Counted from the first letter of the stretch, positions 399-32,156 are shown. The stretch: DNA of 32,769 nucleotides from Bacteriovorax stolpii (GCA_945905815.1 CAMDQH010000027.1:1-32769), one strand, 5' to 3'. Made by a program: numbers and translations. Notes: generated by a model from the letters alone, not told the origin.

Positions 399-3300
399 TT
401 AATGAGTCGGAGTGAGTAGTCCATCCGCCGTAATAAAGAGCTGATCCAAATCAATATCCCCCGCCGATGAATTCTTAACATCAAGTAAAATCTGAGTTCG
501 ATCAACAAGTGAAACGGAACCAACTAATAACCATTCAAAATCAACGCCAGTAGAACCTACGGCAGTCGGCCCCAGGCCAGTCACAGCGACGGGAACTTCC
601 GGTACAACCGCCCTATTCATGCGAGAAACATTTATCACGAGATTGCTCCCAGTAGCACTTCTGACTTTAGCCCAAACATAAAAAAGACCAGATGCGAATT
701 TATTATCAAAGTGCATCGAAACTTTTTTATTCGTTGTTAAGTTCTCCATAAACGTAACATATTCAGCATATTCAGGATCATTTGTCTCAGTCACCTTCAC
801 TGATGTTTGACCAACTTCCATTGAATCATGCATTTCTGCTTCTAACTTTATGTCATCACTCCAGTGGGAATAATGATTTGATTCATGCCATTTATCTAAT
901 TGGTAAAAAACTGGCGAAAGAGGAGTTGTGCGGTCAAATAAATACACACTTCCCTGGCGACGAGTTTTAACTGTAAAAGTTTCTTCCCAAGCGCTGCCGC
1001 CAATGTAAGAGAGCTTAATTCTAATTTCTTCTTCTTCAGGGACGGTATCCTTAATGTTTGAAGAGCGCATGATTCCAGTGGCGATAACAAAACGGTCTTG
1101 TGACATATGCTTTCTTACATAGACTGGCGTAAGAAAATTTCCCTTTAATATTTCAATTTTGTACTTATCAGATTCAGCAATCGCCACACCTTTTATTTTC
1201 CATTCTGTGTTTGTCAGGAAGTAGCCATTCGCAAAGATATCTTCGTAATGACTAACCAATGATTGTGCTAACGCCGGAGTGGCCATTTGCCAAACATAAT
1301 TCTGAGGAGTAATCAATGCCCCGCGGTTCGGATCTTTTTGATCATGCTGAAAATTAGATGCCCAAAAATGCTCGGCTCCTAAAATATTTTGAAATTTGAG
1401 AATAGAAAGCCACTGTGAAGGCAGTATATTATTGGTGCCGCTATTGTTACCATTCCAACCAGGACTTACGGCCGGAGCCGCGTGATGATCGCCCCACTTC
1501 ACTTCAATCACTCTTGAATCCCAAAAGTGGCCGAAGCCAAAAGAAAATGCACTGACCATACCCTTATTCCAGTGAGAAGGAGAAAGTATATAGGCCATAT
1601 CTGTAGGATATTTCTGCCCCTTAATTGTGGTTAAAACTTCTCTCACTTTTGCATAATTATGATAAGTCGGTTCTTGAGCTCCCATCGTTTTATACTGGTA
1701 GTAGGCAGTGTAGCCCATATCAATCCCATCCCAGTCGATGGCTTCACGTAGTTGAACTGAACTATTAGTTGAACCGCCAATATAGGATAGATTGAGTGGG
1801 TCATTATAAGTGGGAGACCAGGGATGACGATTATTAATATAGTCGTAGTTTAAATAACCCTCTTTGAAAACGTTATAAAGCTGCATGACGAGCTCTGCCG
1901 AATAGTAATCCCAAAGAGCATTCAACTCACATGCTTTTTGGCCGGAATAACTGGTAGGAGTTATTTTTAGCTTATTTGTTGCACCAGTTGAAAAATAGGT
2001 AAGATCATACGTTTGAGGAATTCCAGTGTTACAAGCAGGAATAAAATATGGGGTTACACCATTGGTGTAACGATCAATAAAATCTTGAACGACGGTACTA
2101 TCAAGTAAATATCCTGATTGTAATCCTCGCCCAACATATTCTTCCAGGTACTCTCCATTTTCAAAAATCATATTTATAGGGCGAGTAATCATAGCGGTAT
2201 CTAGTTTTGTATCCAACTTTAGTGCTTGAAGCTTGGCGACTGGACCAAAGGCAACCGAGGGTGCTGGCCCGGTGAAAGTAGGACTAAAAACATAAGGATT
2301 TATAACGACGTTGCCAGGATTCACGATAACGCCAGAGTAATCGATAAGGCTATTGTTACTGGTATTGGTTAATTTATAAGCGCTATCCCAAGCACTCTTC
2401 TGTTCGAGAAAGTTAGCTGCATTGCCCTTTGGTTCGGGGCCATAGGCAATAAAGGCAACCATATCAACAAGAGGCACGTCAGTTCGCAAATTGATATAAC
2501 TACTACTGAGATTCGGAGTTGCTTCTTTCGTATGTCCTACTCCCCAGGTAACCAGCGCATAATTATTGAATTCTACTAATTCTTTTTGGAATCGAACCCC
2601 TTTTTCGTCAGGAGTTAAAGAATTATTATCACTCTGATTGATAGAATCATTAATAATGAAGTCCAAAGGCATCAGGCCTGAGCTGTTTCTTAACAGATTG
2701 TGTCCCCGTTTATATTGAGGCCGAGGAAAATGTGATAATTGATAGTAAGTAGATTGAGTGTAATAAGGGTGGCCAATAGCAAAATCTTTGGGATCAATGG
2801 CCCCAGCAATATTAACCTCATATACATCGGGAGCATTACCCGGATCAGTAATTGAAAAAGGATTTGCCGATTGAAATTCCGCATAATGAGAACTGACTAA
2901 AGAAAAGGGCAAATCATCAGTATAGAGACGGAACTCATCAATGAAGAAGTTACCTTGTAGACTCCCAATAGTGGTCACGCCACCCGATAAAGCCGTACCG
3001 GGCAGAGTAAATTCCATTTGATCATTTGACTTTCCATCGACAAAAATTTTGCCTTTTCCGGTGGAGGCATTACGGGTAAAGACCACATGGTGCCAATTAT
3101 TATCCAAGAAATGATCATAACGATTAATGCCAGCTCCTTGCAAATTAAGCGCAACTGTACTTGGACTACCACTGCTGTAATTTAGAGTAAAACTAAGACC
3201 ACTGACTCCAAAATTTGCCACCAACCCGCTACTACGAAAGAGTTCAACATTTTTGACTGCAGCACTTCGCGAATAATCGCTATTAAGTGCGGCGTGGCCG

Positions 3301-4235
3301 TTTTCAGGAAATTTCAATAAGAATTCCACTGAAAAATTCCTTGATAATGCAACTGTACCGATTGTTTGCCCTGGTGTGGTAAAGCTGCTGTCCCAAGATC
3401 CACTGTTGCCATAAAGACCTGATACGATGGTTCCTGGACCGGAAGTAAAATCAGTCGCAGAAACTGGGCGAAAAACGGGAGCAGTAATAATAATCGGAGT
3501 CGACCATACATCAACTTCCACATTATTCTCATCACTTCTTCTTAAGCAAAGATAGTAAATTCCGGGAGAGATGTTTTGATTTTTAATATTCCACGTATAA
3601 GTGTTATTGGTTGAAGATTCTAAAATATCTCCGGTAATCTTAATACCCTGAGAGCATGAGCCGCTCGAAACCGAAGCCAAGTAAATATCCAGCTCTAAAG
3701 TACTAAGCGCATGGTCGGTATCAGACCAGCTTATTTGCATGGTTGAATTGTTAGCATAAGAAAATTCGGCGGCATTCGGAGTTAAAAAAGTATAGAGGCT
3801 TGGATTAATCACATTGATTTGGGGGGACCAAATATCAACAACCGCATTAACCCCGTCATTCATGGAAAAACAAATGAAATTGGTACCAAGAGGCATGAGC
3901 GATGAATCAATCATATAATCAAGATGATTGCCCTCCGCCAGACCAATACTCAGTGGAAAACCAGAAGAGCAATTGGTATTAAAAAGACTTTGTGCGTAGA
4001 CTGATAATGTCACTACATTATCTGGGTCCTCACCCTTAAAAGACACTGGAAAAGTCGTCCCTTGCGAGATTGTTAAATTAGAAACCGGCAATGAGAAGAA
4101 ACCACTTGGAATAGCATTGCCCGAAACAACAGGATCATCAATTTTCTGCAAAATATCTTTATTCTTAGGAATAGCTGGGGCATCAAAGCAAGAAGCCAGA
4201 AAACTCAATAAGAAAAGTAATAGGATTTTTACCAT
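399..4235 (-). CDS. Giant LamG-domain lipoprotein with a large hydrolase-like middle region (last gene of operon)
   Basis: A secreted lipoprotein of 1278 residues. The N-terminus MVKILLLFLLSFLASC is a signal peptide with lipobox LASC and the lipidated Cys at 16. Phe follows the Cys, so outer-membrane sorting is expected. Two Ig/FN3-like beta domains lie at about 45-255. A LamG/concanavalin-like domain lies at about 265-445, with the typical NNWHHVVFTR strand and a closing FIDEFRLYTDDLP strand. Residues 470-1060 are a large uncharacterised region with many Trp/Tyr/Asp-rich stretches (for example AIDWDGIDMGYTAYYQY) that could be a glycosidase-like barrel; this is a guess. The C-terminus (about 1120-1278, LEAEMHDS ... 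GLFYVWAKVRS) resembles CBM6/35-type jelly rolls. It overlaps the upstream gene by 7 nt, with AAGGGA 7 nt before ATG, so it is translated within the same operon. The gene at 28477 is a paralogue. Confidence 0.8.
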   Translation of the reverse strand: MVKILLLFLLSFLASCFDAPAIPKNKDILQKIDDPVVSGNAIPSGFFSLPVSNLTISQGTTFPVSFKGEDPDNVVTLSVYAQSLFNTNCSSGFPLSIGLAEGNHLDYMIDSSLMPLGTNFICFSMNDGVNAVVDIWSPQINVINPSLYTFLTPNAAEFSYANNSTMQISWSDTDHALSTLELDIYLASVSSGSCSQGIKITGDILESSTNNTYTWNIKNQNISPGIYYLCLRRSDENNVEVDVWSTPIIITAPVFRPVSATDFTSGPGTIVSGLYGNSGSWDSSFTTPGQTIGTVALSRNFSVEFLLKFPENGHAALNSDYSRSAAVKNVELFRSSGLVANFGVSGLSFTLNYSSGSPSTVALNLQGAGINRYDHFLDNNWHHVVFTRNASTGKGKIFVDGKSNDQMEFTLPGTALSGGVTTIGSLQGNFFIDEFRLYTDDLPFSLVSSHYAEFQSANPFSITDPGNAPDVYEVNIAGAIDPKDFAIGHPYYTQSTYYQLSHFPRPQYKRGHNLLRNSSGLMPLDFIINDSINQSDNNSLTPDEKGVRFQKELVEFNNYALVTWGVGHTKEATPNLSSSYINLRTDVPLVDMVAFIAYGPEPKGNAANFLEQKSAWDSAYKLTNTSNNSLIDYSGVIVNPGNVVINPYVFSPTFTGPAPSVAFGPVAKLQALKLDTKLDTAMITRPINMIFENGEYLEEYVGRGLQSGYLLDSTVVQDFIDRYTNGVTPYFIPACNTGIPQTYDLTYFSTGATNKLKITPTSYSGQKACELNALWDYYSAELVMQLYNVFKEGYLNYDYINNRHPWSPTYNDPLNLSYIGGSTNSSVQLREAIDWDGIDMGYTAYYQYKTMGAQEPTYHNYAKVREVLTTIKGQKYPTDMAYILSPSHWNKGMVSAFSFGFGHFWDSRVIEVKWGDHHAAPAVSPGWNGNNSGTNNILPSQWLSILKFQNILGAEHFWASNFQHDQKDPNRGALITPQNYVWQMATPALAQSLVSHYEDIFANGYFLTNTEWKIKGVAIAESDKYKIEILKGNFLTPVYVRKHMSQDRFVIATGIMRSSNIKDTVPEEEEIRIKLSYIGGSAWEETFTVKTRRQGSVYLFDRTTPLSPVFYQLDKWHESNHYSHWSDDIKLEAEMHDSMEVGQTSVKVTETNDPEYAEYVTFMENLTTNKKVSMHFDNKFASGLFYVWAKVRSATGSNLVINVSRMNRAVVPEVPVAVTGLGPTAVGSTGVDFEWLLVGSVSLVDRTQILLDVKNSSAGDIDLDQLFITADGLLTPTH

Positions 4236-8253: not shown

Positions 8254-11200
8254 TTAGTAGGTATAGGAGCAGCGGGCACCAGCTAAAGGGGTTTGTCCGT
8301 CTCCAATTAACCAGAATAAGTTAAACTTACTCAAAGTACTTGAAAAAGGTCCTCCTGCTTGTAAAACGGTCGGTACAGGATAATTGTTTACAAAATCCCA
8401 AGGTGCCCGATAGTTACTGTCAGTAAAAATCGGCATCGTATTGTGGTCTCCGCAGCTGGCCCCGTTGGACGGAACGGGAATCCCCAAGATAGGAGAGAAG
8501 CATGAATAGAGACTGTAGGCCTGCGGACTAAAATAAGAAGAATTTAAACCGGCGTAACTCAGGTTATTTAAATAACTATCTTGCGCCCAGTTACTTTCAA
8601 TATTTGAACCGGTCGACCCGGCCCCACCAGACATTTTATCCCGCAGCCATTCCCAACCATTACCAATTAAATCATAAATTTCATGGCGGCTGACACAACT
8701 AGAACGTTGACCAGTCAAATTACCAGAAGTCACAGCGCAACTATTTTCTGTTAAGTCATTAGCATCTTCAAATTCAACGGCCAAGCGGTATTCCAGGAGT
8801 CCCATTAAGCGTTTAGATCTAGTGCCCGTCACTTCAGATCCGTTTTGATTTATCTGCATAGAAGCAGTTCGAGAATTATTACGACAATAATCCCAGGCTC
8901 CCTCCACACCTTGCTGGGTAAAGTCTTGTTTGGGAGTTTTTCCAGGTTCATTATAATAAGTTGCGCCGACACCATTGTTAATTTCATAACGGTCGACAAA
9001 TAAATGTTTTCCGAAATCAAATTTTTGAGCGCTACTACCTAATCCATAGGCAGTACAGGAAAAATTGTCAGAAGAGTTTTGGTAAGAACCATTTAAATAT
9101 TCTTCGCACACTTGACGGTTAGCTTCCCAACGATGAATTAAGGACATGTATCTTGGCGGAGCTATAATTTGAACTTTTGAAAATCCCTGTGTGGGAATTG
9201 ATGGATAACTTTTAGTCGCTCCAACGATTGCTGCTTGGTTGTTGCCCGTATAAATCGGAGTTACGAGATAGTAATATTCAGTGCCAGGAATAGCAGTGGA
9301 GTCTTCATAATAGTCAGTTAATACATCTGTTGCAATCGGGGTATTCATATCGTAGTTTTGCCAGGCCAATCTTCTAAAAATCATGTAACCATAAATCGTA
9401 GTGGCCAGGCCCGTAAACGGTTTCCATTTTAAATAAACGGTGGAAGTGGACAAATCAGAATAGGCCTTAATTCTTTCCCATCCTGCATGATTTACGTTTT
9501 GAGATCTTGTCTCCGCCGTCAATGGCAAGACTTTGGTAATGGTACTTACGCCATCAAAGTAAGTTGCGACAAAATTCGCCGGTGAATTGCTAATCAGCCC
9601 AGCTGCCACAGCGGTAAAAGTAACGTTGACTGAACAGCTGGCGGAAGAGGCCAGTACACAACTGGCAACACTACTGGTGTAGCGTGCGGCACCGGGTCCG
9701 GTGAAAGAAAAATTAACAGTTGAAGCGAGACCTGCCAGATTTGTAACAGAAATAGCATCGGCCACGGTCCCACCAACAGCTGCAAATCCTAAATGTTTAG
9801 AAGCAGCGTTGTTGGCAATAACAATTTGTGTTGTATAACCAGAAGTCATATAGGCACTTCCAGAAATAATTTTCTTATTATAATTATCGTTACTGATAGT
9901 GGCATCAAAATCATCAAAGTCGTCGGTATTGTCATAATTAAAACTAAAATCAACATTGTACTGCTTAGGTGTCATAGGGGGATTGAATGCAACATCAATC
10001 GTTTCAGACTGGCCAGGTCCAAGAATAAAATTGCCGGTAGTACCGGGGCCGCTAATGGCAACCACACCAGGAGTGGCAATGGGATTAATCACTGAAGCGA
10101 CGTTATAAACCGCATTCCCTTTGCCAGAATTAGTAACCACCATACTACCTGTTGCCGGAACATTCACCAATGTCGTGAATGACAATGAAGCAGGTAAAAG
10201 AGTTAAATAACCAAGTTCTTTTGCTTCGGCCCGAAATGCAACAATCTTAGACACAGTTGCCGGGGCCATTGCTGCAGTCGTGTAGGTAAAGTTCACTTCC
10301 CCCTGATAAACACCAACACATTGAGGGTTGAATTGAACCGGAAAGCCACAACTGGCCCCATTTTCGAGAATACTCAGAGGTAAACATGTGCTCGTACCTA
10401 AGATCATTCCTTGAGTCGGTAAAAGATCTAATCCACAAAGAGGAGTGCTGGTCATCGTTACGCTATAAGCAGTCAAGGTCGCAGAAAAATTTCCACTGTG
10501 TTGAATGTTCACAATCCCGATTTCATCACTATTAATTCCGACTGGAAAATTTCCAATAAGTTGAGGAAATTTCCAATGAATTGAAGGAACCCCTCCAGCA
10601 AGGACTCCAGGAAAAACAAAGGTAGCATTGAAGCTCATGAGCGGATCCTCAAGACTTCTGGCCTCAATACCATCATCGTAAAGCACTTGAAAATCATAAG
10701 CATAAGTAAAATTGATACCTCGGTAACTTACCGCTAAGGCCAGAGTACATTCTGCCCCCGGAGGAAGCCTGCGATCGGCGGGGCAATCTCCCCCAACTCC
10801 AGGATAACTGCCAGCAAAGGGACCGAATGAATTGGCATAAAAATAAGGCGAGCGAAGGTTCTCAGATAAATCACGAGCGGTTCCACTTCCAACGTTTTTA
10901 ACTTTTACTAAAATCGCATTTGAAATATCTGTACTTAAGATAGAATTGTCCAAAGCCATTTGGTTTACGCTAACAAGTTCCAGTTTGGCCTTACGAATAG
11001 AGCGACCAAAGACCGTGATAACTTTTTCGACTGTCTCAATACCATTGTGATAGTTCATTGTAAGGGTTTCAGAAAAAACACCTACAGAAGTCGGTTGAAA
11101 AAGAAAATTTATACTACAAGACTGCCCTCCGCGATTAATCCGAGTGACTGCAAAGCAACCTGATGATTGGTTCGCACTAATCGCGCCACCTGAGCCGAAA

Positions 11201-12480
11201 GGCGTAATCGAAATCGGATTAGCATCCATACTTCCAATATTGGTTAATACCAGAGTGAGAATTTGAATAGAACCAACACCAATTAATGAGAATTCTGCAA
11301 CATCATCAACCATATTTGTTTTTAAAAGGGCAGCATTGAGTCCACGACCTTGAAAGTAATCGGCGAGAGTTAAAGTTTTACTGCCTTTACCACCTTCATA
11401 GTCGATAACGATTCCACTTTTAAGTAATACCCCGGTAGTCACAGGACTAAATTTAAAGGAGAGATCACAGATTTCATTAATTTCAATATCTCTACCCACA
11501 CAAGTACTTCCTACGGGATCAAAAGTAAAAGGTGGAGTAAGGGTCACATTCCCAACAGACAGTTTATCGTACCCGACATTTTTAAAAGAGATTGTAACCG
11601 TATCAGATCCATTTTTGGGAACGATACCAAAATCATAAGAAGGATTTGTATTATTAAGCTCTAAGCGGCCTTCGATAATATCCGTGACTGCTTTCAATAC
11701 TGCTGGAGCCATGGCAGTGCTAATGCCATTGTTGTAATTCATTCTCAGTGTTGAACTCTTTGGGCCAATTGACTGGGAATTATAGGTTACATCTACTAAG
11801 CAGGTTGTTTTGCCGGGAATTGTTAGGCCACAGGTTCCATTTGTTCCAGGATAAGTTCCCCCAGTAAAATTAAAATCATTCAATGGAGAAAAAATCATGG
11901 AAACTGAATTGGCGGTCAAATCTCCGGAGTTTGTCACCTTTATTATTTTCTTGGCCGTATCCCCTATTCCAAGCGCACCATAAAAATAAATAGGCAATTC
12001 TGGCTGAAGATTTGCCAACATTCCGGCCTTGCCTTTAACCACCACTTGACTGGTAGTCATACTTACTCCGTTCTCAAATCGAATTGGAAGTAGATCTTGA
12101 AAATTTCCAGATTGTGTTGGCATGAAACGTAGAACAACTTTACAAGTTCCACCCGACATTAAAGTAGCGCCACAATTTCCGCCCAAACCAGGAAACTCTC
12201 CACCCAGATAAGAAAAAGGACCTGTAGGATCAAGTGCCCCAAAGCTAATGGTCGTAGCATCAAAGACACCCGGATTGGTCACTTCAAACTCAATATCATT
12301 TACGGTATTGACTACCACTTCACCAAATTCAATATTTTCAGAGCCACTAAACTCAAGGCGACCAAGTTTTTTTTCATCAAATTTGACGACATTAGATTTT
12401 TCATTGCAACCGAATGACAAAACTAACAAGGCAATAAGGAATAGATGGTAAAGCTTAAGGAACAAAACTTCCCCCCTCAT
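8254..12480 (-). CDS. Giant ASH-repeat (choice-of-anchor D) lipoprotein with FN3 and FGE-like C-terminus
   Basis: A secreted lipoprotein of up to 1408 residues. Lipobox LSFGC places the lipidated Cys at 25 (Asn next). About eight repeats of roughly 100-120 residues fill residues 40-1000. Each ends in a 'C-x-hydrophobic ... F-x-P-x-x-x-G' signature (GTCKVVLRFMPTQSG, QSCSINFLFQPTSVG, ASCGFPVQFNPQCVG). This is the pattern of ASH/choice-of-anchor-D immunoglobulin-like domains. One FN3-like domain (about 1000-1105) follows, then the joint LIHRWEANRQVCEEY and a compact FGE-like domain with RLMGLLEYRLA at about 1224, YDLIGNGWEWLRD at about 1268 and terminal GARC. The C-terminal module is shared with its neighbours while the N-terminal part is different, a domain-swap pattern. 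It overlaps the upstream gene by 26 nt from the ATG. A TTG at 12465 preceded by AGGGGGGA is an alternative start that gives a more usual signal peptide length. Confidence 0.85.
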   Translation of the reverse strand: MRGEVLFLKLYHLFLIALLVLSFGCNEKSNVVKFDEKKLGRLEFSGSENIEFGEVVVNTVNDIEFEVTNPGVFDATTISFGALDPTGPFSYLGGEFPGLGGNCGATLMSGGTCKVVLRFMPTQSGNFQDLLPIRFENGVSMTTSQVVVKGKAGMLANLQPELPIYFYGALGIGDTAKKIIKVTNSGDLTANSVSMIFSPLNDFNFTGGTYPGTNGTCGLTIPGKTTCLVDVTYNSQSIGPKSSTLRMNYNNGISTAMAPAVLKAVTDIIEGRLELNNTNPSYDFGIVPKNGSDTVTISFKNVGYDKLSVGNVTLTPPFTFDPVGSTCVGRDIEINEICDLSFKFSPVTTGVLLKSGIVIDYEGGKGSKTLTLADYFQGRGLNAALLKTNMVDDVAEFSLIGVGSIQILTLVLTNIGSMDANPISITPFGSGGAISANQSSGCFAVTRINRGGQSCSINFLFQPTSVGVFSETLTMNYHNGIETVEKVITVFGRSIRKAKLELVSVNQMALDNSILSTDISNAILVKVKNVGSGTARDLSENLRSPYFYANSFGPFAGSYPGVGGDCPADRRLPPGAECTLALAVSYRGINFTYAYDFQVLYDDGIEARSLEDPLMSFNATFVFPGVLAGGVPSIHWKFPQLIGNFPVGINSDEIGIVNIQHSGNFSATLTAYSVTMTSTPLCGLDLLPTQGMILGTSTCLPLSILENGASCGFPVQFNPQCVGVYQGEVNFTYTTAAMAPATVSKIVAFRAEAKELGYLTLLPASLSFTTLVNVPATGSMVVTNSGKGNAVYNVASVINPIATPGVVAISGPGTTGNFILGPGQSETIDVAFNPPMTPKQYNVDFSFNYDNTDDFDDFDATISNDNYNKKIISGSAYMTSGYTTQIVIANNAASKHLGFAAVGGTVADAISVTNLAGLASTVNFSFTGPGAARYTSSVASCVLASSASCSVNVTFTAVAAGLISNSPANFVATYFDGVSTITKVLPLTAETRSQNVNHAGWERIKAYSDLSTSTVYLKWKPFTGLATTIYGYMIFRRLAWQNYDMNTPIATDVLTDYYEDSTAIPGTEYYYLVTPIYTGNNQAAIVGATKSYPSIPTQGFSKVQIIAPPRYMSLIHRWEANRQVCEEYLNGSYQNSSDNFSCTAYGLGSSAQKFDFGKHLFVDRYEINNGVGATYYNEPGKTPKQDFTQQGVEGAWDYCRNNSRTASMQINQNGSEVTGTRSKRLMGLLEYRLAVEFEDANDLTENSCAVTSGNLTGQRSSCVSRHEIYDLIGNGWEWLRDKMSGGAGSTGSNIESNWAQDSYLNNLSYAGLNSSYFSPQAYSLYSCFSPILGIPVPSNGASCGDHNTMPIFTDSNYRAPWDFVNNYPVPTVLQAGGPFSSTLSKFNLFWLIGDGQTPLAGARCSYTY

Positions 12481-17365: not shown

Positions 17366-17698
17366 ATGAATGATATTATTCCTGTTTTTAATCAGATATG
17401 TGTTGAAAAAAATGTCTCACGAGAAAAATCTCAAATCCTACGCAAGTGGGTAGTCAACATCATCAAGGCTTTGCCTGAAGACTCCCCTGTCCGTATGGAT
17501 AGCTTCTCGCATGAAGGTGCTAATTATTTTTTATTAAGTTTTCCCATGACCGATATATTTACCAATCCCTGGGACACTAAAAGTTTGAATCTGTCCACCA
17601 CACTCTATCGCGCTTCTAAAGAAATAAATTTTGTCCCAAGATTTCAGAACCAGGGAAACTTTTCTGGCGTCACACTTAGAGTTAAGCTCGAAGCTTAA
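17366..17698 (+). CDS. Hypothetical protein, 110 aa
   Basis: This family is not recognised. The start is the ATG at 17366 (MNDIIPVFNQICVEKN), 2 nt after the preceding stop, with AGG 6 nt upstream; the longer frame from 17318 lies inside the upstream gene. It is cytoplasmic in character: a helical N-terminal half (REKSQILRKWVVNIIKALPED) and a beta-rich C-terminal half ending in GVTLRVKLEA. Its stop overlaps the stop of the convergent MotB-like gene by 2 nt, leaving no room for a terminator between them. Confidence 0.65.
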   Translation: MNDIIPVFNQICVEKNVSREKSQILRKWVVNIIKALPEDSPVRMDSFSHEGANYFLLSFPMTDIFTNPWDTKSLNLSTTLYRASKEINFVPRFQNQGNFSGVTLRVKLEA

Positions 17699-18465
17699 GG
17701 CAGATCCTCAATCTCTTGAGTAGAGTCTTTAAAATAGACCCCAAGACCCATCTTGATATTTTTGGATACATCTTTAGGTTGAATCACTTTAATTACCACC
17801 CGGCGATTGAGCTTTTGATTCTCAGGAAGAGATTTTCCAGTGGCATCCATCATCGCAGCAACCGGTCTAGTATCTGCATAACCGATAACCGCTAGCTTTG
17901 ATGGTTCAAATCCGCCAATTTCAAAACGCTCCACCACGGCCGAAGCCCTAGCACTAGACAGTGCCCAGTTATTGGCAAAACCGGAGTTTGGACGAGGAGG
18001 AATATTATCGCTGTGGCCTTCCACTAGAATGCGGTAATTTGGGTTAAGTGAGCGGATGATCGAAATCATTCCATCTAAGCTAGCCTCTACTGACTCACCT
18101 AGCTCAGCTGACTGATCATCAAACAAGGCACTTCCTTGAAAAACCACATTTAAATCTCCATCTTTAATAGAAATCTTGGCCATCTTTACAATTTCAGGAT
18201 GCCGGGAAAGTTCATCTTCAAAATTTTTAAGCTTCTGCTCAGATTCCTTCCCCTCACCTTTGAATTCACCTTTACCAGGACCTTTTCCTTTTTCCTTACT
18301 AAAATGATCCGCTATGACCTTCACTTTTTGCTGAAAGCCAGCAGGCTCATAATTGGCAAAGGCCATCATGAGAATAAAAAAGCAAGCGACCAAAGTCATC
18401 ATGTCGGCGTAAGAGACAAGCCATAGTTCTTCTTCATCTGGTGGATCGAATTTGCGCTTTGCCAT
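17695..18465 (-). CDS. motB: MotB-family stator protein
   Basis: This is the peptidoglycan-anchored stator subunit of an ion-driven motor. Its 256 residues have the usual layout. A short cytoplasmic N-terminus leads into one membrane span containing the signature WLVSYADMMTLVACFFI, whose Asp21 corresponds to the ion-binding aspartate of MotB. A Lys/Gly/Glu-rich linker lies at about 60-85. An OmpA-type peptidoglycan-binding domain covers about 100-225, with LVEGHSDNIPP and NWALSSARASAVV. The gene starts 1 nt after the stop of the MotA-like gene with AAGG 7 nt upstream, so the pair is translationally coupled. No flagellar genes are nearby; the neighbours are outer-membrane candidates and a FliF/FliG-like protein, so a non-flagellar motor is possible. 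Whether it uses H+ or Na+ cannot be told. Confidence 0.92.
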   Translation of the reverse strand: MAKRKFDPPDEEELWLVSYADMMTLVACFFILMMAFANYEPAGFQQKVKVIADHFSKEKGKGPGKGEFKGEGKESEQKLKNFEDELSRHPEIVKMAKISIKDGDLNVVFQGSALFDDQSAELGESVEASLDGMISIIRSLNPNYRILVEGHSDNIPPRPNSGFANNWALSSARASAVVERFEIGGFEPSKLAVIGYADTRPVAAMMDATGKSLPENQKLNRRVVIKVIQPKDVSKNIKMGLGVYFKDSTQEIEDLP

Positions 18466-18466
18466 T

Positions 18467-19258
18467 TTAAGCCTTCCCTACGATGTCTTTCCAATTAATG
18501 CGATTTTCGGGAGGTAAAAATGAGTTGAGTTCTTCGGCCAAGATCACCGGATTCTGCTTATCCATGATGAGTTTGGTGCCTTCGATAACAATTAAATCTT
18601 TCAAATATAAATTTTTCGAATGCAAAATAAGATTTTCTGCCACAGGCAAGAAAGCGATATTCGATAAGGCACAGCCATAGAGCGTAGTAATGAGACATAC
18701 ACCCATGGCAGGCCCAATCATCTTCAGGGAATCTGGGCCACCTAAGTTGGCCAGAAGAACAACCATTCCGATAGTGGTACCCAACATTCCAAAAGCAGGA
18801 GCGAATTTTGCTACCACTTTCAGTTTTCCGGCCTCTTCTTTTCGTTCAACGTCCTGGTTATTGGCACGATCATCCAGAATTTTCACAATTCTTTCCTGAG
18901 TCATGACCCCATCGGCTACCATCATCAGCGCTTCTTTAAGAAACGTATCAGAAGATTTAGAGGCCAAAGCTTCAAGTGGCGTCCCTTTTCGATATGCATC
19001 CCCAATTTTAATCATTTCAGTAATGATTTTAGAGTTCGCAGTTACATTTTTGATGAAAACAATTTTGAAAAAAGTTTTAAAAAGCACCCAGATTCTGTCT
19101 AAGCGGAAAGCAATTGCAGTGGAAGTTAAGGTTCCGCCCACAACAATAAATGCACTGGGAACATCCCAAAATATTCCTAAAGTGGGAGAAGATAATCTTA
19201 GCCCAATGACAAAAACAATTCCTGCCGACAATAAGCCCAATATCGAGAAAATATTCAT
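18467..19258 (-). CDS. motA: MotA-family stator protein
   Basis: This is the membrane-embedded stator subunit that works with the adjacent MotB-like protein. Its 263 residues carry four hydrophobic segments: IFSILGLLSAGIVFVIGL, DVPSAFIVVGGTLTSTAIAF, the third span with APAFGMLGTTIGMVVLL (the family-conserved proline and GT motif), and GVCLITTLYGCALSNIAF. The cytoplasmic loop between spans 2 and 3 is basic/acidic helical (EALASKSSDTFLKEAL), the region that touches FliG in flagellar motors. AAAGG lies 6 nt before ATG. The length and pattern fit PomA/MotA better than the TolQ/ExbB branch. The gene is divergent from the gene at 19294, with only 35 bp between the two start codons. Confidence 0.92.
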   Translation of the reverse strand: MNIFSILGLLSAGIVFVIGLRLSSPTLGIFWDVPSAFIVVGGTLTSTAIAFRLDRIWVLFKTFFKIVFIKNVTANSKIITEMIKIGDAYRKGTPLEALASKSSDTFLKEALMMVADGVMTQERIVKILDDRANNQDVERKEEAGKLKVVAKFAPAFGMLGTTIGMVVLLANLGGPDSLKMIGPAMGVCLITTLYGCALSNIAFLPVAENLILHSKNLYLKDLIVIEGTKLIMDKQNPVILAEELNSFLPPENRINWKDIVGKA

Positions 19259-19293: not shown

Positions 19294-20565
19294 ATGAAAC
19301 GAAATCAAATTGTAAACTCTTGTCTTGTCCTCCTATTTGGACTGATGGTATTGCCATTGGGACATGCTCAACAAACTAAACCGGAAAAACATCTCGTTGT
19401 TGATGCGGCCAAGCTGCCGACTGATTTGGTCAAAAACACTGAAAGCATTCAGCAAGTACTCATACGTTCAGTATTATTATCCCAACAGTTTGAAATTCTT
19501 TTTGCAAAACCAGAAAATGTCAGCGATACTAAAATGCGGGTTTATGAGCTTCAGACTTCCGTCGATCCCACAGACAGGCCAGGCTTCTACAATATTTCCC
19601 TTAAACTTGTTAACCCTAAGTTACATAAAACCGTTCGTGCGGAAAAAGAAGAATTAATTAACGGTAAACGGCTACTGCATACTTTGCGGATTATGACCTT
19701 AAGATTGATTTTCGGTGAAGCCTTCATCAAGACGAATAAAGAAAGGTTGGAAAAAATTTCCGCTGAAGATCCGGCACTCTCAATCATTCCTGCGCCCCTT
19801 CCAAAAGGCCTTCCACCTGGGCAAAAGGTAGCACCTCTCAAGGATAAAAAGAAAGACTACGATCAATCCCGCGAAGATCTGGATAAGAAGCCTGAATCAC
19901 CTTCTGCCGATAAAGCTGTCCCTTTTTTTCGCGAAAAGACTTATGCACTAGGTGCTTATTATCAGTCTCAACAGATACAATCTTCGGGTGAATTGTTAGA
20001 TGTCACCAACAATTTCACAGCACTTCTTTTAGATTTTCACACGCATTGGAAGTTGGGTAGCGAAGGTGAAAGTTTGGCCATTGTTTCGGGACGTTATGGA
20101 AGAACGCTTAGTAAGTATGAGAAAACTATTCCGGATTCACTACAATTGGTAGGTCTCTATGATCATCATCTCTTTTCTAAATTTCGTGGACTAGCAGGCC
20201 TACGTCTGGATCAGGCCAGCTTTGCCAATCTACCGGGCCTTAATCAAGGTATTCAAGTAGGTACAACTCGCACGATCTGGGGTCAGCTAGGCCTAGAAAC
20301 TGCAGCAATTTTTTTCAATAGCCGCTTTCTTTTTTCAGCTAGTTTATTAAAAGCTTTGCAATCGAAAGTTGATTTTCCGGGAGCTTCTGGAGCCCAAGTT
20401 TCTGGCCAGGGATATCTTTTTTTTGGGGCCTATGAATTTTCTAAAAAATATTTTTTGGCAATTGAAATGTCCAAATATATCTTGAGCATTACGGGAGCTT
20501 CCAGCTATTCAAACTCCGATCAAAGATTAGCTCTGGGAATTTATTATCCATTGGGTGAGAAATGA
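19294..20565 (+). CDS. Exported protein with N-terminal domain, linker and probable outer-membrane barrel
   Basis: A protein of 423 residues with a Sec signal peptide (MKRNQIVNSCLVLLFGLMVLPLGHAQ, cleavage near 25). Residues 30-160 form a mixed domain with amphipathic helices and beta strands (QQVLIRSVLLSQQFEILF; NISLKLVNPKLHKTV). A Pro/Lys-rich linker covers about 165-205. Residues 210-423 show alternating hydrophobic/polar strands with many Tyr, Gly and aromatic ends (KTYALGAYYQSQ, QLALGIYYPLG-like ending), typical of a beta-barrel; it ends ...YYPLGEK rather than in a classical terminal Phe. The family is not recognised. It is the first gene of the plus-strand operon and overlaps the next gene by 4 nt (ATGA). 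An outer-membrane role next to a stator recalls the barrel proteins of the myxococcal Glt gliding complex; this is analogy, not shown homology. Confidence 0.75.
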   Translation: MKRNQIVNSCLVLLFGLMVLPLGHAQQTKPEKHLVVDAAKLPTDLVKNTESIQQVLIRSVLLSQQFEILFAKPENVSDTKMRVYELQTSVDPTDRPGFYNISLKLVNPKLHKTVRAEKEELINGKRLLHTLRIMTLRLIFGEAFIKTNKERLEKISAEDPALSIIPAPLPKGLPPGQKVAPLKDKKKDYDQSREDLDKKPESPSADKAVPFFREKTYALGAYYQSQQIQSSGELLDVTNNFTALLLDFHTHWKLGSEGESLAIVSGRYGRTLSKYEKTIPDSLQLVGLYDHHLFSKFRGLAGLRLDQASFANLPGLNQGIQVGTTRTIWGQLGLETAAIFFNSRFLFSASLLKALQSKVDFPGASGAQVSGQGYLFFGAYEFSKKYFLAIEMSKYILSITGASSYSNSDQRLALGIYYPLGEK

Positions 20566-21155
20566 AAAATATCATGATCACCCTCATTCTGAGTCTGTTT
20601 ATTTTACCGGCCTCGGCCGATGAACAGATTAATGGTGGCTTCATTCGGAGAATGAATTTTTCACTTGCCATGACTTCCCTGTCGCTTTCAGAGCAGACGG
20701 ACTCAGCTGGAAGTTATTCGGGTACGGCCATAAACCTGGCAGTGGAATTTCCTTTTGTTCAGTCGATTAAGCGAGAGTACTTCATGAAAAGTTCGGTACC
20801 GGTAGTATCCGCTGCCGGTGAAGGACTCTACTCGGCTATCGTGGGAATGAATAATTATCGGGACAAACTGTCGGCTCCCTTCCGCTTGGAAGACGGCGCA
20901 AGTGAACTTAAAATCAGGCCTAAAATGCAATACTATTGGGGTCCACATTTTGGAGCAGGTGCGGCAGTCTACAAAATAGGCACCGCCAAAAAAAGTGATT
21001 TTGCCTTCATCATAGGCGCTCAAGCGGGCGCAATTAAACCACTAACCGCACCTTGGGGTTTAAAGCTTGAAGGTGGTCTTTCCAAAGGATTCGGGATCAA
21101 CTCGGGATTCCTGACCTATTTTGTCGGTGGTGGTGCCACATACGATCTCGACTAA
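20562..21155 (+). CDS. Small outer-membrane beta-barrel candidate
   Basis: A protein of 197 residues with a signal peptide (MKNIMITLILSLFILPASADEQ, cleavage after ASA). The mature part has a run of short amphipathic strands with Gly and aromatic girdles (FGAGAAVYKIG, FAFIIGAQAGAIKPL, FLTYFVGGGATYDLD). This pattern fits an 8-10-strand barrel such as the OmpW/OmpX-size class; exact family not assigned. The start overlaps the previous stop by 4 nt (ATGA) with GGGTGAG upstream, so translation is coupled. Two consecutive exported barrel-like proteins suggest a hetero-complex in the outer membrane. Confidence 0.75.
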   Translation: MKNIMITLILSLFILPASADEQINGGFIRRMNFSLAMTSLSLSEQTDSAGSYSGTAINLAVEFPFVQSIKREYFMKSSVPVVSAAGEGLYSAIVGMNNYRDKLSAPFRLEDGASELKIRPKMQYYWGPHFGAGAAVYKIGTAKKSDFAFIIGAQAGAIKPLTAPWGLKLEGGLSKGFGINSGFLTYFVGGGATYDLD

Positions 21156-21208: not shown

Positions 21209-21817
21209 ATGAAAATCTTCTATATATTAGCAGTAATATTTCATTTTCAACTTCTCATCGGACCAACTTGGGCTTCTCAGGTAGTGATAAGAAGTCAGCC
21301 TGAAGGGGCAGAGGTTATCGTTCAAGTCGCTAAGGGTGGAAAAAAAACTAAAATTGGTACCACACCTTTAGTCATACCTCACGCTCAACTAGATACAATC
21401 ACTCAAGGTGTGGCCTACAAGATTGAAGTGATTAAACCTGGCTTTGAAGTTTATCGATTGCTTGTAGCGGCTACCAACATGGAAGAGATTACTTTGTCGG
21501 CGGTATTGGAACCTTCAATCGAAGTCAAATTAGGGGCAAACACGGATGTGTTGATCACAGGCCTTTTCGAAGCTCAACGTCTGACTCGTGCTAAAGACTA
21601 CGATGGGGCCTTGTCAAAATTAGCAGAATTGGAAAAGTCCTACGCTTCAGTATCGAGCGTTTTTGAACTGAGAGGCAGTGTGAATTATCTCAAGAAAGAT
21701 TTCACCACTGCTCTGGCAGAATTCCGTAAGGCCTACACGTTGAATCCACAAAATGAAGTAGCACAAAGAATGAAAGATTACCTTGAGACCAAGATGGTTT
21801 CTGGAGCAAAGCAATGA
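21209..21817 (+). CDS. Periplasmic PEGA-domain and TPR protein
   Basis: A protein of 202 residues with a signal peptide (MKIFYILAVIFHFQLLIGPTWA). Residues 23-100 are a PEGA domain: the name-giving motif is present (SQPEGAEVIVQV), followed by IGTTPLVIPH and a Gly-Phe turn (KPGFEVYRLLV). Residues 110-195 carry TPR-like helices (ARDYDGALSKLAELEKSY-type repeat at about 127-146, then FTTALAEFRKAYTLNPQN). PEGA domains usually act as surface or periplasmic binding modules and TPRs as protein scaffolds, so a linker between the membrane motor and outer-membrane parts is plausible. The 53-bp gap before it shows no ribosome binding site. It overlaps the next gene by 4 nt (ATGA). Confidence 0.82.
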   Translation: MKIFYILAVIFHFQLLIGPTWASQVVIRSQPEGAEVIVQVAKGGKKTKIGTTPLVIPHAQLDTITQGVAYKIEVIKPGFEVYRLLVAATNMEEITLSAVLEPSIEVKLGANTDVLITGLFEAQRLTRAKDYDGALSKLAELEKSYASVSSVFELRGSVNYLKKDFTTALAEFRKAYTLNPQNEVAQRMKDYLETKMVSGAKQ

Positions 21818-23772: not shown

Positions 23773-23780
23773 GTTACACC

Positions 23781-26700
23781 ATGAGCACAAAGAACTTTAT
23801 TTTACTCCTGTTGTCCTTCTGGTTAGGAGGATGTGTAGGTGATGTTCAAAATTCTTCGAAACAAGACAATTCGGTCTTCAAAAAAAACATCGGTAATTTT
23901 AACTATATTGGTGCAATCAATGCTGTTGCTGAATCACAAAAAAAAATAAGGGTCTATTTTCCATCCTATTCCGGTGGGAACGTAGATTACGCAGTTTATA
24001 TTAACGGTAATTTTCTTATTCCTGCCGCGACTGTGTCCCACAATGCTCTAAATCTGAACCCGAATGGACTTTTATCAGTGGTTATAGATGGATTGAATGC
24101 TGCTAGTAAATATGAAATCACTGTTCGTGTCCGTGATGCATCCGATTCTACGATTGAAGATGCTAATACTAATTCTGTCTCGGCCACGACTTTTACGCAA
24201 CCTATGCCGACTTTTAATGGCCTCTTAGGCCTTGAAAATTTTGCAGGTATCGATGGCCTAACTAAAATCAGAGCTTTCTGGAATGAAGCTTTGCCCACAT
24301 CTCTTCCTATCGCTGGCCATATGATCTATTACAAAAAGAAAACGGATGTCGTTTTTCAGACAATTCGAATTGAAGATCCTTCAGCTCGTGAAGGAACCAT
24401 AAGTGGTCTGGTAAAAAACACAGATTATATTTTTAATGTCCGAGCATTTGATAATCAAAACCGCGAGGAAGAAAACTACGAGTATGCCAGTCTCATGACC
24501 TTAGATGATACTCTCGTTATTTTCCCAGGAATCTCAGCGGCAACTGTTCCCACCAATGATACCGGCTTCGGAAATATTTTGGTAGAGTGGCCTAAAGCTA
24601 TTGGCCCAGTTGTGAAGTATCGAATTTTTTGGAAAGAAAGCCTTGATCCAAATCCCATCCTGGCAAGTTTAAACTTCATCGATATCACTGACCTTAAAGC
24701 CGTTTCCAGATTAGTGGCAGTTCCCAATAGAAATACCAATTATCAATTTGTCGTTTTGGGATGCCTTGATCTTCCTGCCTGTGCCACTTACAATTCGGCC
24801 AGTGCTCTGAATATTAAAAGTGCTACGACTACACCGCCAGTCGCTCCTTTTGCAGGACTCTCGGAAGTACGTTTTGGAATTGATTACGCCATTCTTTCCT
24901 GGATAACGATGCCCGATTCTGCTTTAGGTGCCTTCGATGCCTTTCAAGTTTCAAAAATTGAAACTAACAATACAGAGACATTGATTATAGGCACTGGCGC
25001 CCCCCTGATTGCCACTTATCCCGTCGCTAAAAGTGCCACAAGTGTTAAGGTCGAAGGATTAATTGAAGGCGAGAAGTATTGCTTCAAAGTAAAATCGACT
25101 ATTGTTGATCCTGGTCCCGTCTATCGTAATGCCGGCAATGCTTCGGTCGTATGTGGGATTCCCCAATATGTTCGACCTGGTCAAATCCAATGGGTCATGA
25201 CGACAATACCTGATCCAGAATCGACCAATCCGCTTGATACCATTCAGACGGCCTGCTACTCCCCAACCAAAGATGGATTTACAGTAAAATGGAAGGCTCC
25301 AATAGGAGAAGGCACTTTTTCTTCATTTGCTATTTATGTTGAAGAAGGTCCAAGTGCAACTTATACCTCAACGCCAGTCTACATGAACAAAACTGTTGGC
25401 GACCCAACTTACATTTTTAATTTCACTGGATTGAATCCTGACACTCAATATGCGGTAGGAATCCGGACTTATTTTTCACAAAATACTATCCAAAAATTTG
25501 GGGCAAGCTCTGTTATTCAGACTTGTAAAACCAATCTTGAACCAGTTGTACCCCAAGGTTGGTCTGGCATCATGTCTCTGGGGTCTAAAACTGATGGTCT
25601 GAATAACAATGAGATTATTCCTGAAGCCTTTATTCCAAAGGGAGACTTCATTCTTAATCAAGGGATAGCGACAGAAGCTCCCTTTACCATGCCAGTTGAT
25701 TTTAATAAAATTCAAAACTATTTTGGCTGGGAGCCCGTTGGTTCAAAAATTTCAACTTACGATTCTCGCGGTATGATCAGATTGGCCTGGAAAGATTTTA
25801 AGTACCAAGATGGTGGTAATTTCTCTCTCTCCTCTAATTCAACTTCTTTGGGTTACAACGTTTACCGAATGGATTACAAACATTCCGTTCACGCTAGCTC
25901 CAGACCAGGAAAGAATCTTACTTCATGGGGCCTACCTCGCAACACTACCCCGCTTAAAGCAAAAAATGTGATTACCACTCAGGGCACTCAGGCGATCGTT
26001 GAATTTTATGATTATGATTTTTCTGATGGTGTGACCGATTTATCTAAAGTCTATTGGTATAAGGTTGAACCTGTGGCTTCTGGAAATCATGTTCAACTTC
26101 TCTCAACAGCTCCAGACACTGATTACAAAGATTATGTCGTAAAAGTGATTTTACCAAGTAAGAATGTTTCTCTCATTCATCGCTGGATGGCAAACAGGGA
26201 AACTTGCGAAAGGATGGGGCGCCAAGCCCTCATTGATCGCAATAAACAATATCGCTGTCCTTATGATGGGATTGCCTCTAAAGCTTACCCTACTGGCTCC
26301 TATTACGATGTGGGTGGCCATATTTTGATGGATCGTTTTGAATTGTCTTGTAATATGTCCCGCAATAAATGCAATAACACTGAAACTAAAAAAGGTGCCT
26401 GGCAATGTGTGGGAGCTGCCTGCTCCTATATACCTTACGAAGCTGCCAACGGTGACTGCGTAGGTACTGGAACTTTACCAACTGCTTTATCCACTAATGA
26501 TCCCAATACTCTCAGTTTGGCCGGTGCCGTTTATTATAATCGCAAGAAGTGGGACACCACCAGTTGCTCCATCCATCAAGGTGGCTCATGGAAAGACCTC
26601 AATAGTGCTAGCTTAACTCCAGCACAAGCTGCACCTGCTGTTACCAACGCTGCCAATCTGCCACCTTTAACTCGGCTTACTCAGACGCGCATGGGACTTC

Positions 26701-27983
26701 TGTGTGCTCAGAAATCCATCACTCTTCAGTTGGATACAACGAATACAAAAGTCATTTCCAAACGACTTCAGCGCAAACAAGAATTTGTCTTGGCCAGTGC
26801 CCCACCGGAAGATTCTCCAAATCACTACACCTATACCAACGGAGACAATGATCTAGGCTGTAATATTAAATGGGCGAAAGGCTCTAGTCTGACAGTTTAT
26901 CAAGGGATGCTATACGCTAACCTTTCTCCAAATGATGCTGTTCAAATTGTTCGCGGACCATCGGCTACTGGGTCCAATTTCTCTAAGCACAATGGTGGAT
27001 TGCATGGGCAAAAGATGAATCAATTGGATTTGCGAAACTTTCGCTACCCTACTACTACCATGGCAGATGCCATGGATTATTCTGGACTTTCTCAGGCAGA
27101 TTTTTCAATTATCCATGGAAACTGGCCAATGCCAGAGCGTGGCTCAAAATCTGGCCCCGTTTTTGCCGGCGGCTCGCAGGGAATTGATTCCACTATGCTG
27201 TGCCTTTCTCGTTACGGAATTCAAGATATGATTGGCAACGTTCCCGAATGGTCCAGTGATCGCTTCTATTGTACCAATATGGATAACTGCGTTCCCGCCA
27301 CTACCACGACTGAAGACACACAAAATCGCACGTGGTCTTATCTTTCTAAAAAGTCTGAAGTGTATGATATGAAATTTTCTGGAAGTTCTATGGGACTTCC
27401 ATTAAGAAATTATTTTGGTCCAATTAATGCTCTCACTTTTCCTGTATCTCCAACACTCAATAAGACCTGGTTTAATCATTTCCTTAAATCTACCAGTGAT
27501 CCCAATGCCTTCCAAAGTGCTGACTTCATTTCCGTTCCACTGGGGCTACCGGTTTCTTGTCAGGGTGGCAAATGTCTTAAAACGCCTTCAACTTTTGATG
27601 ATAATGCTTCGGTAGCTACCGGACTGCCTAATCCTTTTAGTTTAATTTACGGATTTAATTATGAAGGGGACCTGGCCAGGGCCAGTGTCTTCTATGATTT
27701 ACAAAGCTCAGCTTTTAATGCCAATGATGGGACAGTTGCAAAATATCTCAGCTTTATTCTAGGTGGATTTCCATGCTCAGCTCGCAGTGAAAATGGCTAT
27801 AATGAGTATTTACTTCTCCCTGGTAATTTGGACGTAACCAAGCATGCTTGCCTAGATGATAAGTTTGCACCTGGAAGAAATAGTTTTAATTTGACTGTCA
27901 CTGAAACCGCCTTGAATGATCTAGGTGGTCGCTGCTCCACGATTGCGGCCGAGGATGAAGAAGGCAACTTTACTATCCCGTAA
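23781..27983 (+). CDS. Giant FN3/FGE-like lipoprotein co-encoded with the motor proteins
   Basis: A secreted lipoprotein of 1400 residues. The signal MSTKNFILLLLSFWLGGC has the lipidated Cys at 18 (Val next). The post-Cys tether (GDVQNSSKQDNS) resembles that of the paralogues. FN3-like domains lie at about 141-240, 244-350, 353-465 and 490-590, with a degenerate one at 664-785. The joint SLIHRWMANRETCERMG lies at about 797. The FGE-like C-terminal half has RLQRKQEFVLA at about 995, YGIQDMIGNVPEWSSDRFYC at about 1144, GGFPC at about 1329 and GGRC at about 1381. It starts 8 bp after the FliF/FliG-like stop with AGG 7 nt upstream, so it very likely belongs to the motor operon. Its 3' end overlaps the convergent PilZ gene by 11 nt. 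The position suggests it is cargo, adhesin or regulator of the machine. Confidence 0.87.
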   Translation: MSTKNFILLLLSFWLGGCVGDVQNSSKQDNSVFKKNIGNFNYIGAINAVAESQKKIRVYFPSYSGGNVDYAVYINGNFLIPAATVSHNALNLNPNGLLSVVIDGLNAASKYEITVRVRDASDSTIEDANTNSVSATTFTQPMPTFNGLLGLENFAGIDGLTKIRAFWNEALPTSLPIAGHMIYYKKKTDVVFQTIRIEDPSAREGTISGLVKNTDYIFNVRAFDNQNREEENYEYASLMTLDDTLVIFPGISAATVPTNDTGFGNILVEWPKAIGPVVKYRIFWKESLDPNPILASLNFIDITDLKAVSRLVAVPNRNTNYQFVVLGCLDLPACATYNSASALNIKSATTTPPVAPFAGLSEVRFGIDYAILSWITMPDSALGAFDAFQVSKIETNNTETLIIGTGAPLIATYPVAKSATSVKVEGLIEGEKYCFKVKSTIVDPGPVYRNAGNASVVCGIPQYVRPGQIQWVMTTIPDPESTNPLDTIQTACYSPTKDGFTVKWKAPIGEGTFSSFAIYVEEGPSATYTSTPVYMNKTVGDPTYIFNFTGLNPDTQYAVGIRTYFSQNTIQKFGASSVIQTCKTNLEPVVPQGWSGIMSLGSKTDGLNNNEIIPEAFIPKGDFILNQGIATEAPFTMPVDFNKIQNYFGWEPVGSKISTYDSRGMIRLAWKDFKYQDGGNFSLSSNSTSLGYNVYRMDYKHSVHASSRPGKNLTSWGLPRNTTPLKAKNVITTQGTQAIVEFYDYDFSDGVTDLSKVYWYKVEPVASGNHVQLLSTAPDTDYKDYVVKVILPSKNVSLIHRWMANRETCERMGRQALIDRNKQYRCPYDGIASKAYPTGSYYDVGGHILMDRFELSCNMSRNKCNNTETKKGAWQCVGAACSYIPYEAANGDCVGTGTLPTALSTNDPNTLSLAGAVYYNRKKWDTTSCSIHQGGSWKDLNSASLTPAQAAPAVTNAANLPPLTRLTQTRMGLLCAQKSITLQLDTTNTKVISKRLQRKQEFVLASAPPEDSPNHYTYTNGDNDLGCNIKWAKGSSLTVYQGMLYANLSPNDAVQIVRGPSATGSNFSKHNGGLHGQKMNQLDLRNFRYPTTTMADAMDYSGLSQADFSIIHGNWPMPERGSKSGPVFAGGSQGIDSTMLCLSRYGIQDMIGNVPEWSSDRFYCTNMDNCVPATTTTEDTQNRTWSYLSKKSEVYDMKFSGSSMGLPLRNYFGPINALTFPVSPTLNKTWFNHFLKSTSDPNAFQSADFISVPLGLPVSCQGGKCLKTPSTFDDNASVATGLPNPFSLIYGFNYEGDLARASVFYDLQSSAFNANDGTVAKYLSFILGGFPCSARSENGYNEYLLLPGNLDVTKHACLDDKFAPGRNSFNLTVTETALNDLGGRCSTIAAEDEEGNFTIP

Positions 27984-28404
27984 TGCTATTATCTCTGACT
28001 AAAATATCTGCCATCTTTTCCAACACAAATTTTTTATATTCATTGCGATTAGTAAGGACCTGACACCCGACCTGGCCATTGCGAACCCATGCCACTTTAT
28101 ATTTATTCTCGACACTTAAGCCTTCAAAGGACATGCTGATGGTCATGATTGCGCCCCGACGAAAAAGTTGTTCTTGATCATTAGCATCCAAAAAAAATGA
28201 TAGACCACCAAGCGAAATATCTTTGAGGTAAAACACTTTTTTCTGTAGTTCTGAAAAGGTAACTTCAAATAAAATGTTCGAGAGTTTTTTTAGCGCCAAA
28301 CGTTCATATAATCGATTTTCCACTTGGAGCATCCGATTAAAACGCTTACCGAGAAAAGGTAACAAGACTAAAACCGTCAGGATCATTTTTTTAAATGTGC
28401 GCAT
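27973..28404 (-). CDS. PilZ-domain protein with N-terminal membrane segment
   Basis: A protein of 143 residues. A short hydrophobic segment near the N-terminus (MILTVLVLLPFLG) probably anchors it in the inner membrane. The rest is a PilZ domain: RLYER fits the RxxxR c-di-GMP-binding element and DISLGG, about 30 residues on, fits DxSxxG. These are the residues that contact cyclic di-GMP in known PilZ proteins. A beta-rich remainder (TISMSFEGLSV, YKVAWVRNGQVGCQVL) and a C-terminal helix complete the fold. No ribosome binding site precedes ATG 28404, but TATAAT lies 5 nt before it. The gene is wedged between the motor-operon lipoprotein and the LamG lipoprotein, which suggests c-di-GMP control of the surface system; that link is inferred. 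Confidence 0.82.
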   Translation of the reverse strand: MRTFKKMILTVLVLLPFLGKRFNRMLQVENRLYERLALKKLSNILFEVTFSELQKKVFYLKDISLGGLSFFLDANDQEQLFRRGAIMTISMSFEGLSVENKYKVAWVRNGQVGCQVLTNRNEYKKFVLEKMADILVRDNSITG

Positions 28405-31918: not shown

Positions 31919-32065
31919 TTAATGATTCTTAAGAATTTTGCAAACTCTTTGCGCCAGATCCTTTGCCGCTTCTACGCAGATATGAATATTGTAATTTGAG
32001 GCGGCCCCAGAGCATCCAGGTGCTGACAGCGATCTTTTAATGTTTTCTTGATAACCGTCAAAGAT
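31919..32065 (-). pseudogene. C-terminal fragment of an unrecognised protein next to the intron
   Basis: A minus-strand open frame of 48 codons ends in TAA at 31919 and reads FDGYQENIKRSLSAPGCSG, followed by a helical end (VEAAKDLAQRVCKILKN). Codon composition is protein-like. It begins exactly where the group II intron 3' boundary is predicted, so it could be the 3' exon of an interrupted gene. The sequence on the other side of the intron does not offer a clear matching open frame. Family unknown; it may be chance. Confidence 0.35.
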
Positions 32066-32102
32066 CGGGTAGACCTACCCCGTTACCAGGGTAGACTCCC
32101 CA
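32066..32102 (-). ncRNA. Group II intron domain VI
   Basis: Downstream of domain V the minus strand has GTCTACCCTGG-TAAC-GGGGTAGG, a stem with a short loop, followed by TCTACCCGAT at the expected 3' splice site. A bulged A near the 3' side could be the branch point; I cannot place it exactly. Confidence 0.6.
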
Positions 32103-32104
32103 CA

Positions 32105-32137
32105 GAACCGTACGTGCGGATTTCCCGCATACGGCTC
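32105..32137 (-). ncRNA. Group II intron domain V
   Basis: On the minus strand GAGCCGTATGCGG-GAAA loop-TCCGCACGTACGGTTC folds into the 33-nt domain V hairpin. It has the catalytic AGC triad at the base, the CG bulge and a GAAA loop. It is the most conserved part of group II introns and is undamaged here. Confidence 0.88.
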
Positions 32138-32156
32138 TTCAAAATAGGAGTTTACT

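Follow-up and report, generated by a model that had tools for sequence, protein, structure and literature searches.

A probably lineage-specific lipoprotein gene beside a flagellum-related, non-flagellar motor in Bacteriovorax stolpii: a candidate outer part of a putative surface-movement machine

The focal gene of this study encodes a lipoprotein of 1400 residues in Bacteriovorax stolpii and belongs to a family whose N-terminal half (N-half) is genetically linked to a motor related to that of the flagellum but independent of it. The window, that is, the whole stretch of DNA analysed, is 32,769 nucleotides long (GCA_945905815.1 CAMDQH010000027.1:1-32769), and all positions are counted from its first letter. 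We see an even chance that the focal gene is an additional copy, specific to its lineage, in a family of motor-associated outer-membrane lipoproteins, and that members of this family form the outer load-bearing part of the non-flagellar motor. If the motor powers a surface-movement machine, the lipoprotein is well placed to be the component that carries the load on its outer side.

According to a 2026 review (PMC13104615), the machinery by which Bdellovibrio glides has yet to be identified, and finding the motor, the adhesins and the means of force transmission is a major open challenge. The module described here names candidates for the motor, the adhesins and the force transmission in Bacteriovoracaceae, a group related to Bdellovibrio. 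There is no simple extension to B. bacteriovorus, since the gene for the fused FliF-FliG-like protein (FliFG) was found in only 72 of 369 genomes of the phylum. If the proposal is true, a flagellar-type rotor is at work without a flagellum, and an ion-driven motor is paired with FGE-like outer-membrane lipoproteins for the second time, after the Bacteroidota track.

Results

Motor genes at the locus

The features of the locus are collected in Table 1.

Table 1. Features of the window and their coordinates.
Feature	Position	Strand	Remarks
A1, LamG-domain lipoprotein	399..4235	-	End of divergent operon; candidate system member
Paralogue A2, FN3/FGE-like lipoprotein, 1328 aa	4229..8215	-	36% identity to focal protein
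A3, HYDIN/choice-of-anchor-D giant lipoprotein	8254..12480	-	Shares only part of the C-half; family recurs at motor loci
Paralogue A4, FN3/FGE-like lipoprotein, 1445 aa	12455..16792	-	37% identity to focal protein, full length
MotB/PomB-type stator subunit	17695..18465	-	Plug and OmpA-type peptidoglycan-binding domain
MotA/PomA-type stator subunit	18467..19258	-	Flagellar type, full length
Barrel1-like secreted protein with N-terminal domain	19294..20565	+	Barrel fold putative
Barrel2-like secreted protein	20562..21155	+	Kept beside FliFG across the phylum; barrel fold putative
PEGA-TPR periplasmic-type protein	21209..21817	+	4-bp overlap with FliFG start
FliF-FliG-like rotor protein (FliFG), 652 aa	21814..23772	+	N-terminal signal/TM, periplasmic part, TM ~239-268, FliG-like C-terminal half
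Focal lipoprotein, 1400 aa	23781..27983	+	ATG start; lipobox LGGC-VGD, FN3 N-half, Cys-rich FGE-like C-half
Focal N-half, residues 1-599	23781..25577	+	Motor-linked module with FN3 domains
Focal C-half, residues 600-1400	25578..27980	+	Cys-rich; FGE-like motif YGIQDMIGNVPEW
PilZ protein	27973..28404	-	Convergent; 11-bp overlap with focal gene end; adjoins FliFG in G004 too

An earlier note on this DNA had called the gene upstream of the focal one FliF/FliG-like, and the comparisons bore this out. The protein matched a FliG profile (3ajc, E 2.5e-7, ARM/M/C similarity), had FliG as its top Foldseek matches and could be aligned with the true FliG of the same genome through the torque-helix region (E 0.0014). 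Where the FliG torque helix aligns, Arg578 was found in 13/14 and an acidic residue at position 584 in 14/14. The match to the FliF tail was weak (E 0.25) but lay in the right place, and an RBM3/collar similarity was returned by Foldseek with a probability of 0.51. The assignment of the 652-residue protein to FliG is supported by these sequence and fold similarities, and that of its membrane-anchored part to FliF is tentative. The divergent stator genes are of the flagellar type: MotA matched PomA/MotA over its full length (6e-33) and is not TolQ/ExbB-like, and the remaining stator features (plug, OmpA domain and the channel Asp in SYADMMTL) were all found.

The focal genome carries a separate true FliG and FlhA. 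In the genus g53, FlhA and FliG_C were absent from all four genomes (88-99% complete); one of these four genomes (G121) holds two FliFG-like loci with PEGA genes, motor-type lipoproteins and MotAB at both, and another (G122) has MotAB together with motor lipoproteins. Because the motor is kept where FlhA and FliG are missing, it is not flagellar, and we rejected the idea that the locus is part of a flagellum. Several further families of the phylum also have the core PEGA-FliFG-barrel2-MotA-MotB, usually without these lipoproteins. Our literature searches on FliF-FliG-fusion or FliG-like non-flagellar motors gave flagellar work only.

Two further observations concern other loci. A second motor-like locus (L036, L038, L039) encodes a FliG-like protein of 355 residues and, next to it, a protein of ~515 residues, with MotAB and homologues of barrel1 and barrel2; this may be a version of the FliFG motor in which the fused protein is split. 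A group II intron domain (Rfam RF00029, 55 bits) lies at 32064-32139 on the minus strand, near the contig end.

The focal lipoprotein

The earlier note had described a 1400-residue FN3/FGE-like lipoprotein here; the open reading frame is real, and so are its lipobox, its fn3 match and, in degenerate form, its FGE motif. The N-terminus, MSTKNFILLLLSFWLGGCVGD, contains the lipobox LGGC with Cys18 and with Val, not Asp, at +2, an outer-membrane lipoprotein signal. Besides the lipobox cysteine the protein has 24 further Cys, 7 of which, all in the C-half, are invariant among 18 relatives. The lack of Asp at +2 and the cysteine content fit a predicted exported outer-membrane lipoprotein. The fn3 domain (Pfam PF00041) was matched at E=3e-19 (69.4 bits versus a curated cutoff of 25), and by 20 of the 20 N-half relatives at E<=0.01.

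For the C-half, the FGE profile PF03781 gave 16.9 bits and did not reach its curated cutoff of 23.3; 10 of the 18 relatives matched it, the best with E 1.9e-7. The FGE core GxxDxxGNVxEW and the terminal GfRC are found in the focal C-half as YGIQDMIGNVPEW and the end GGRC. The Gly, Asp, Gly and Glu of the core motif are invariant or near-invariant, and the terminal RC is invariant (in A2). The FGE-like character of the C-half is known here by motif, and the FGE fold is putative. An AF2 model of the C-half had a pLDDT of 51, with the motif region low, and a Foldseek search with this weak model gave no FGE among the matches listed, which were of low probability and mostly Ig-like or chaperone folds. 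The region aligned with the FGE catalytic Cys pair, GGFPCSARSEN, contains a single Cys in the window copies, and the other sequences have no Cys there. With the pair missing there, an enzyme role is unlikely, and an FGE enzyme was rejected.

The C-half also occurs in lipoproteins distant from the motor, elsewhere in the genomes, so we take the N-half as the motor marker and rejected the FGE-like domain for that purpose. At four loci (L075, L076, L077, L082), FGE-like lipoproteins without the motor N-half adjoin a gene of ParA-like type (GKVISFLNQKGGVGKT motif) and so have a conserved setting of another kind.

Junction with FliFG

As the earlier note had stated, the focal gene starts 8 bp (23773-23780) past the FliFG-like stop codon (TAG, 23770-23772). 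An AGG 7 nt before the focal ATG, overlapping the upstream stop codon, is weakly Shine-Dalgarno-like and a possible ribosome-binding site. A gap of only 8 bp leaves no room for a promoter or a terminator between the genes. Around the locus, neither promoter-like patterns (29 versus 26+/-4 in shuffled DNA) nor terminator-like patterns (14 versus 11+/-3) were in excess. From the gap and these pattern scans it is likely that FliFG and the focal lipoprotein gene share one transcript.

A PilZ gene directly neighbours FliFG in G004, as it does the focal gene in the window, and c-di-GMP control of the motor is possible.

Linkage of the lipoprotein family to the motor

We surveyed 129 genomes of the family; these are drafts, the counts depend on draft quality, and only strong N-half matches were counted. 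The relatives named here are metagenome-assembled genomes of Bacteriovoracaceae and Bdellovibrionales. The contigs were searched with an alignment of FliFG sequences.

The N-half was found almost only together with the motor: 34 of the 38 genomes that have it carry FliFG too (hypergeometric 1.7e-18, uncorrected for phylogeny). On the same contig as FliFG lie 42 of the 70 N-half matches, all 42 at most 17.8 kb away, and the pattern spans about 20 genera. In one genome (G094, genus g41) lipoproteins and FliFG are on separate contigs, that of the lipoproteins being large. A counted N-half match was missing in nine FliFG genomes, some of them 95-99% complete. The co-occurrence and the linkage reject random placement for the family, though not for the exact position of the focal copy.

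Many genera share a recurrent operon with the order N, N+FGE, HYDIN-type, barrel1, barrel2, PEGA, FliFG and with MotAB divergent, the frequent sizes being 640 residues for N, 1720 for N+FGE and 1650 for the HYDIN-type protein. Lipoproteins are upstream of or divergent from the motor in most relatives. Their type (mid-size versus a long/short pair) clusters on a quick FliFG tree with long branches, with 9 changes against 19.7 after shuffling (0/200).

It is improbable, in our judgement, that the lipoproteins serve in prey or surface recognition and are co-expressed with the motor without any mechanical coupling. Surface binding proteins often contain domains of the FN3, LamG and HYDIN types, the motor is flanked by LamG lipoproteins too, and giant lipoproteins of other families are found near motors that lack the N-type; yet a family that follows the motor through about 20 genera, with a type that tracks motor phylogeny, exceeds what co-regulation by itself would need.

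Giant lipoprotein-type open reading frames with little or no Pfam match (L035:11069-19991, L212:12960-19900 and L203:10780-15000) share an N-terminal GLKL... pattern and adjoin or lie near FliFG motors without N-type lipoproteins.

Paralogues and origin of the focal copy

The divergent operon had been proposed to hold paralogues of the focal gene. This is true of A4 and A2, which share the family's co-occurrence with and linkage to the motor; A3 is related through part of its C-half, and A1 was not found to be a paralogue in the comparison of the window lipoproteins. On a quick tree with long branches, the three N-type copies of the window group together in one clade (SH-aLRT 99), and an older long/short lipoprotein pair is present in other lineages. 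Together with the local duplications of the family beside other motors, this suggests that two or more kinds of N-type lipoprotein are often at work in the machine.

In the nearest motor relative (G004, FliFG 49-51% identical), PilZ comes directly after FliFG, and no lipoprotein gene separates the two. No focal homologue was found in that genome, which is 85% complete; its contig stops within MotB, and the divergent side is unjudgeable. The position behind FliFG is not ancestral to the operon. Since the three window copies are one clade, the focal gene probably arose by duplication and came to lie behind FliFG in its own lineage; alternatively, G004 may have lost the lipoprotein gene. The description 'locked into the motor operon' holds only in part: the family is tied to the motor, but the position of its genes is not conserved, as G004 and the upstream or divergent genes of the relatives show.

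The same unconserved position, the lack of the gene in G004 and the single clade of window copies would also be expected if a duplicated lipoprotein gene had landed behind FliFG by chance and were transcribed by simple read-through, this copy having no function of its own. We hold this to be very improbable, as the copy is intact, of full length and from a motor-linked family, and local duplications of this family recur beside motors in three other genomes (G150, G063, G122).

In the genus g60 (L208:11960-13894, L209:7267-9186), a different lipoprotein of ~640 residues directly follows FliFG, in the position of the focal gene.

Discussion

Proposed function

In the mechanism that we propose, MotAB units anchored in the peptidoglycan would drive the fused FliF-FliG-like rotor in the inner membrane, and the torque would reach the FN3/FGE-like lipoproteins of the outer membrane by way of the rotor's periplasmic domain, the PEGA-TPR protein and the barrel-like proteins. 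The lipoproteins would be the load-bearing outer part, either as a surface adhesin or as a track or ring that carries one, and the output of the machine would likely be surface movement of predatory-type Bacteriovoracaceae.

Two versions of the outer part both fit: an adhesin on the cell surface that the motor moves, and a ring or track facing the periplasm. The track is a serious rival to the moved adhesin because the FGE-fold lipoproteins GldK and PorK of Bacteroidota form a track on the periplasmic side. In its strict form, with the lipoproteins as a static or moving ring or track on the periplasmic face of the outer membrane, a PorK/GldK-like structural hub and not adhesins, we consider it rather unlikely. 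The precedent combines outer-membrane lipoproteins, a repurposed non-catalytic FGE fold and a stator-like motor, and here too the FGE-like domain is without the catalytic Cys pair, is Cys-rich and has barrel-like proteins alongside. Against this, the FGE fold is putative, the similarity to PorK (E 0.2) is no better than that to other FGE-like proteins, and FN3 arrays several hundred residues long are more usual in proteins that bind or form stalks.

A broader form of our load-bearing reading, which we advance tentatively as possible, is that a flagellum-related rotor, the FliF-FliG fusion, was put to a new use without any link to Bacteroidota or myxobacteria: it would push FGE-like outer-membrane lipoproteins that carry adhesins. 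It would be a third stator-driven gliding machine, and the focal gene would encode a duplicated track or adhesin subunit.

Comparison with known systems

Zorya ZorAB shares the MotAB-like character, and the MotB of the locus matches ZorB models through its OmpA and plug regions. MotA had no ZorA match, however, a FliG-like rotor is present and no other Zorya gene was found among the tested neighbours; Zorya was rejected, the similarity being at the MotB level only.

With the MS-ring and C-ring of the flagellum (FliF, FliG) the motor has in common a MotA/PomA-type stator, a FliG-like torque domain and a putative FliF-like membrane-anchored part. It differs in that a single protein combines the FliF and FliG parts, the locus has no export gate, and the motor is linked to barrel-like proteins and lipoproteins and kept in genomes without FlhA and FliG.

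The Agl-Glt machinery of Myxococcus with CglB offers an analogy, as a non-flagellar, stator-driven trans-envelope machine whose outer end is made up of outer-membrane barrels and a lipoprotein adhesin at the surface. AglRS are TolQR/ExbB-like (GIT clade), whereas the stator here is of the MotA/PomA type, and to our knowledge a FliG rotor is absent from the AglRS machinery. A VWA domain is present in CglB, and none was found in the focal protein by Pfam scan.

Compared with GldK, GldJ and PorK of the Bacteroidota T9SS and gliding systems, the focal protein likewise has the features of an outer-membrane lipoprotein and a non-catalytic domain of FGE-like type, and its gene lies with genes for an ion-driven stator and for secreted or barrel-like proteins. 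The motor is different, MotAB with a FliF-FliG-like rotor instead of GldLM/PorLM, and we know of no large FN3 N-half in PorK-type proteins. The focal protein matched no NCBIfam family, GldK/PorK included, and its PorK match (E 0.23) was confined to the shared FGE motif. PorK and GldK, with their non-catalytic FGE fold, are outer-membrane lipoproteins that act as hub and track, to which outer-membrane partners are attached by disulfides (PMC12421860, PMC12635249). The focal family, too, has conserved cysteines that could be put to use, and with seven of them invariant in the C-half a disulfide-based link to a partner is worth considering.
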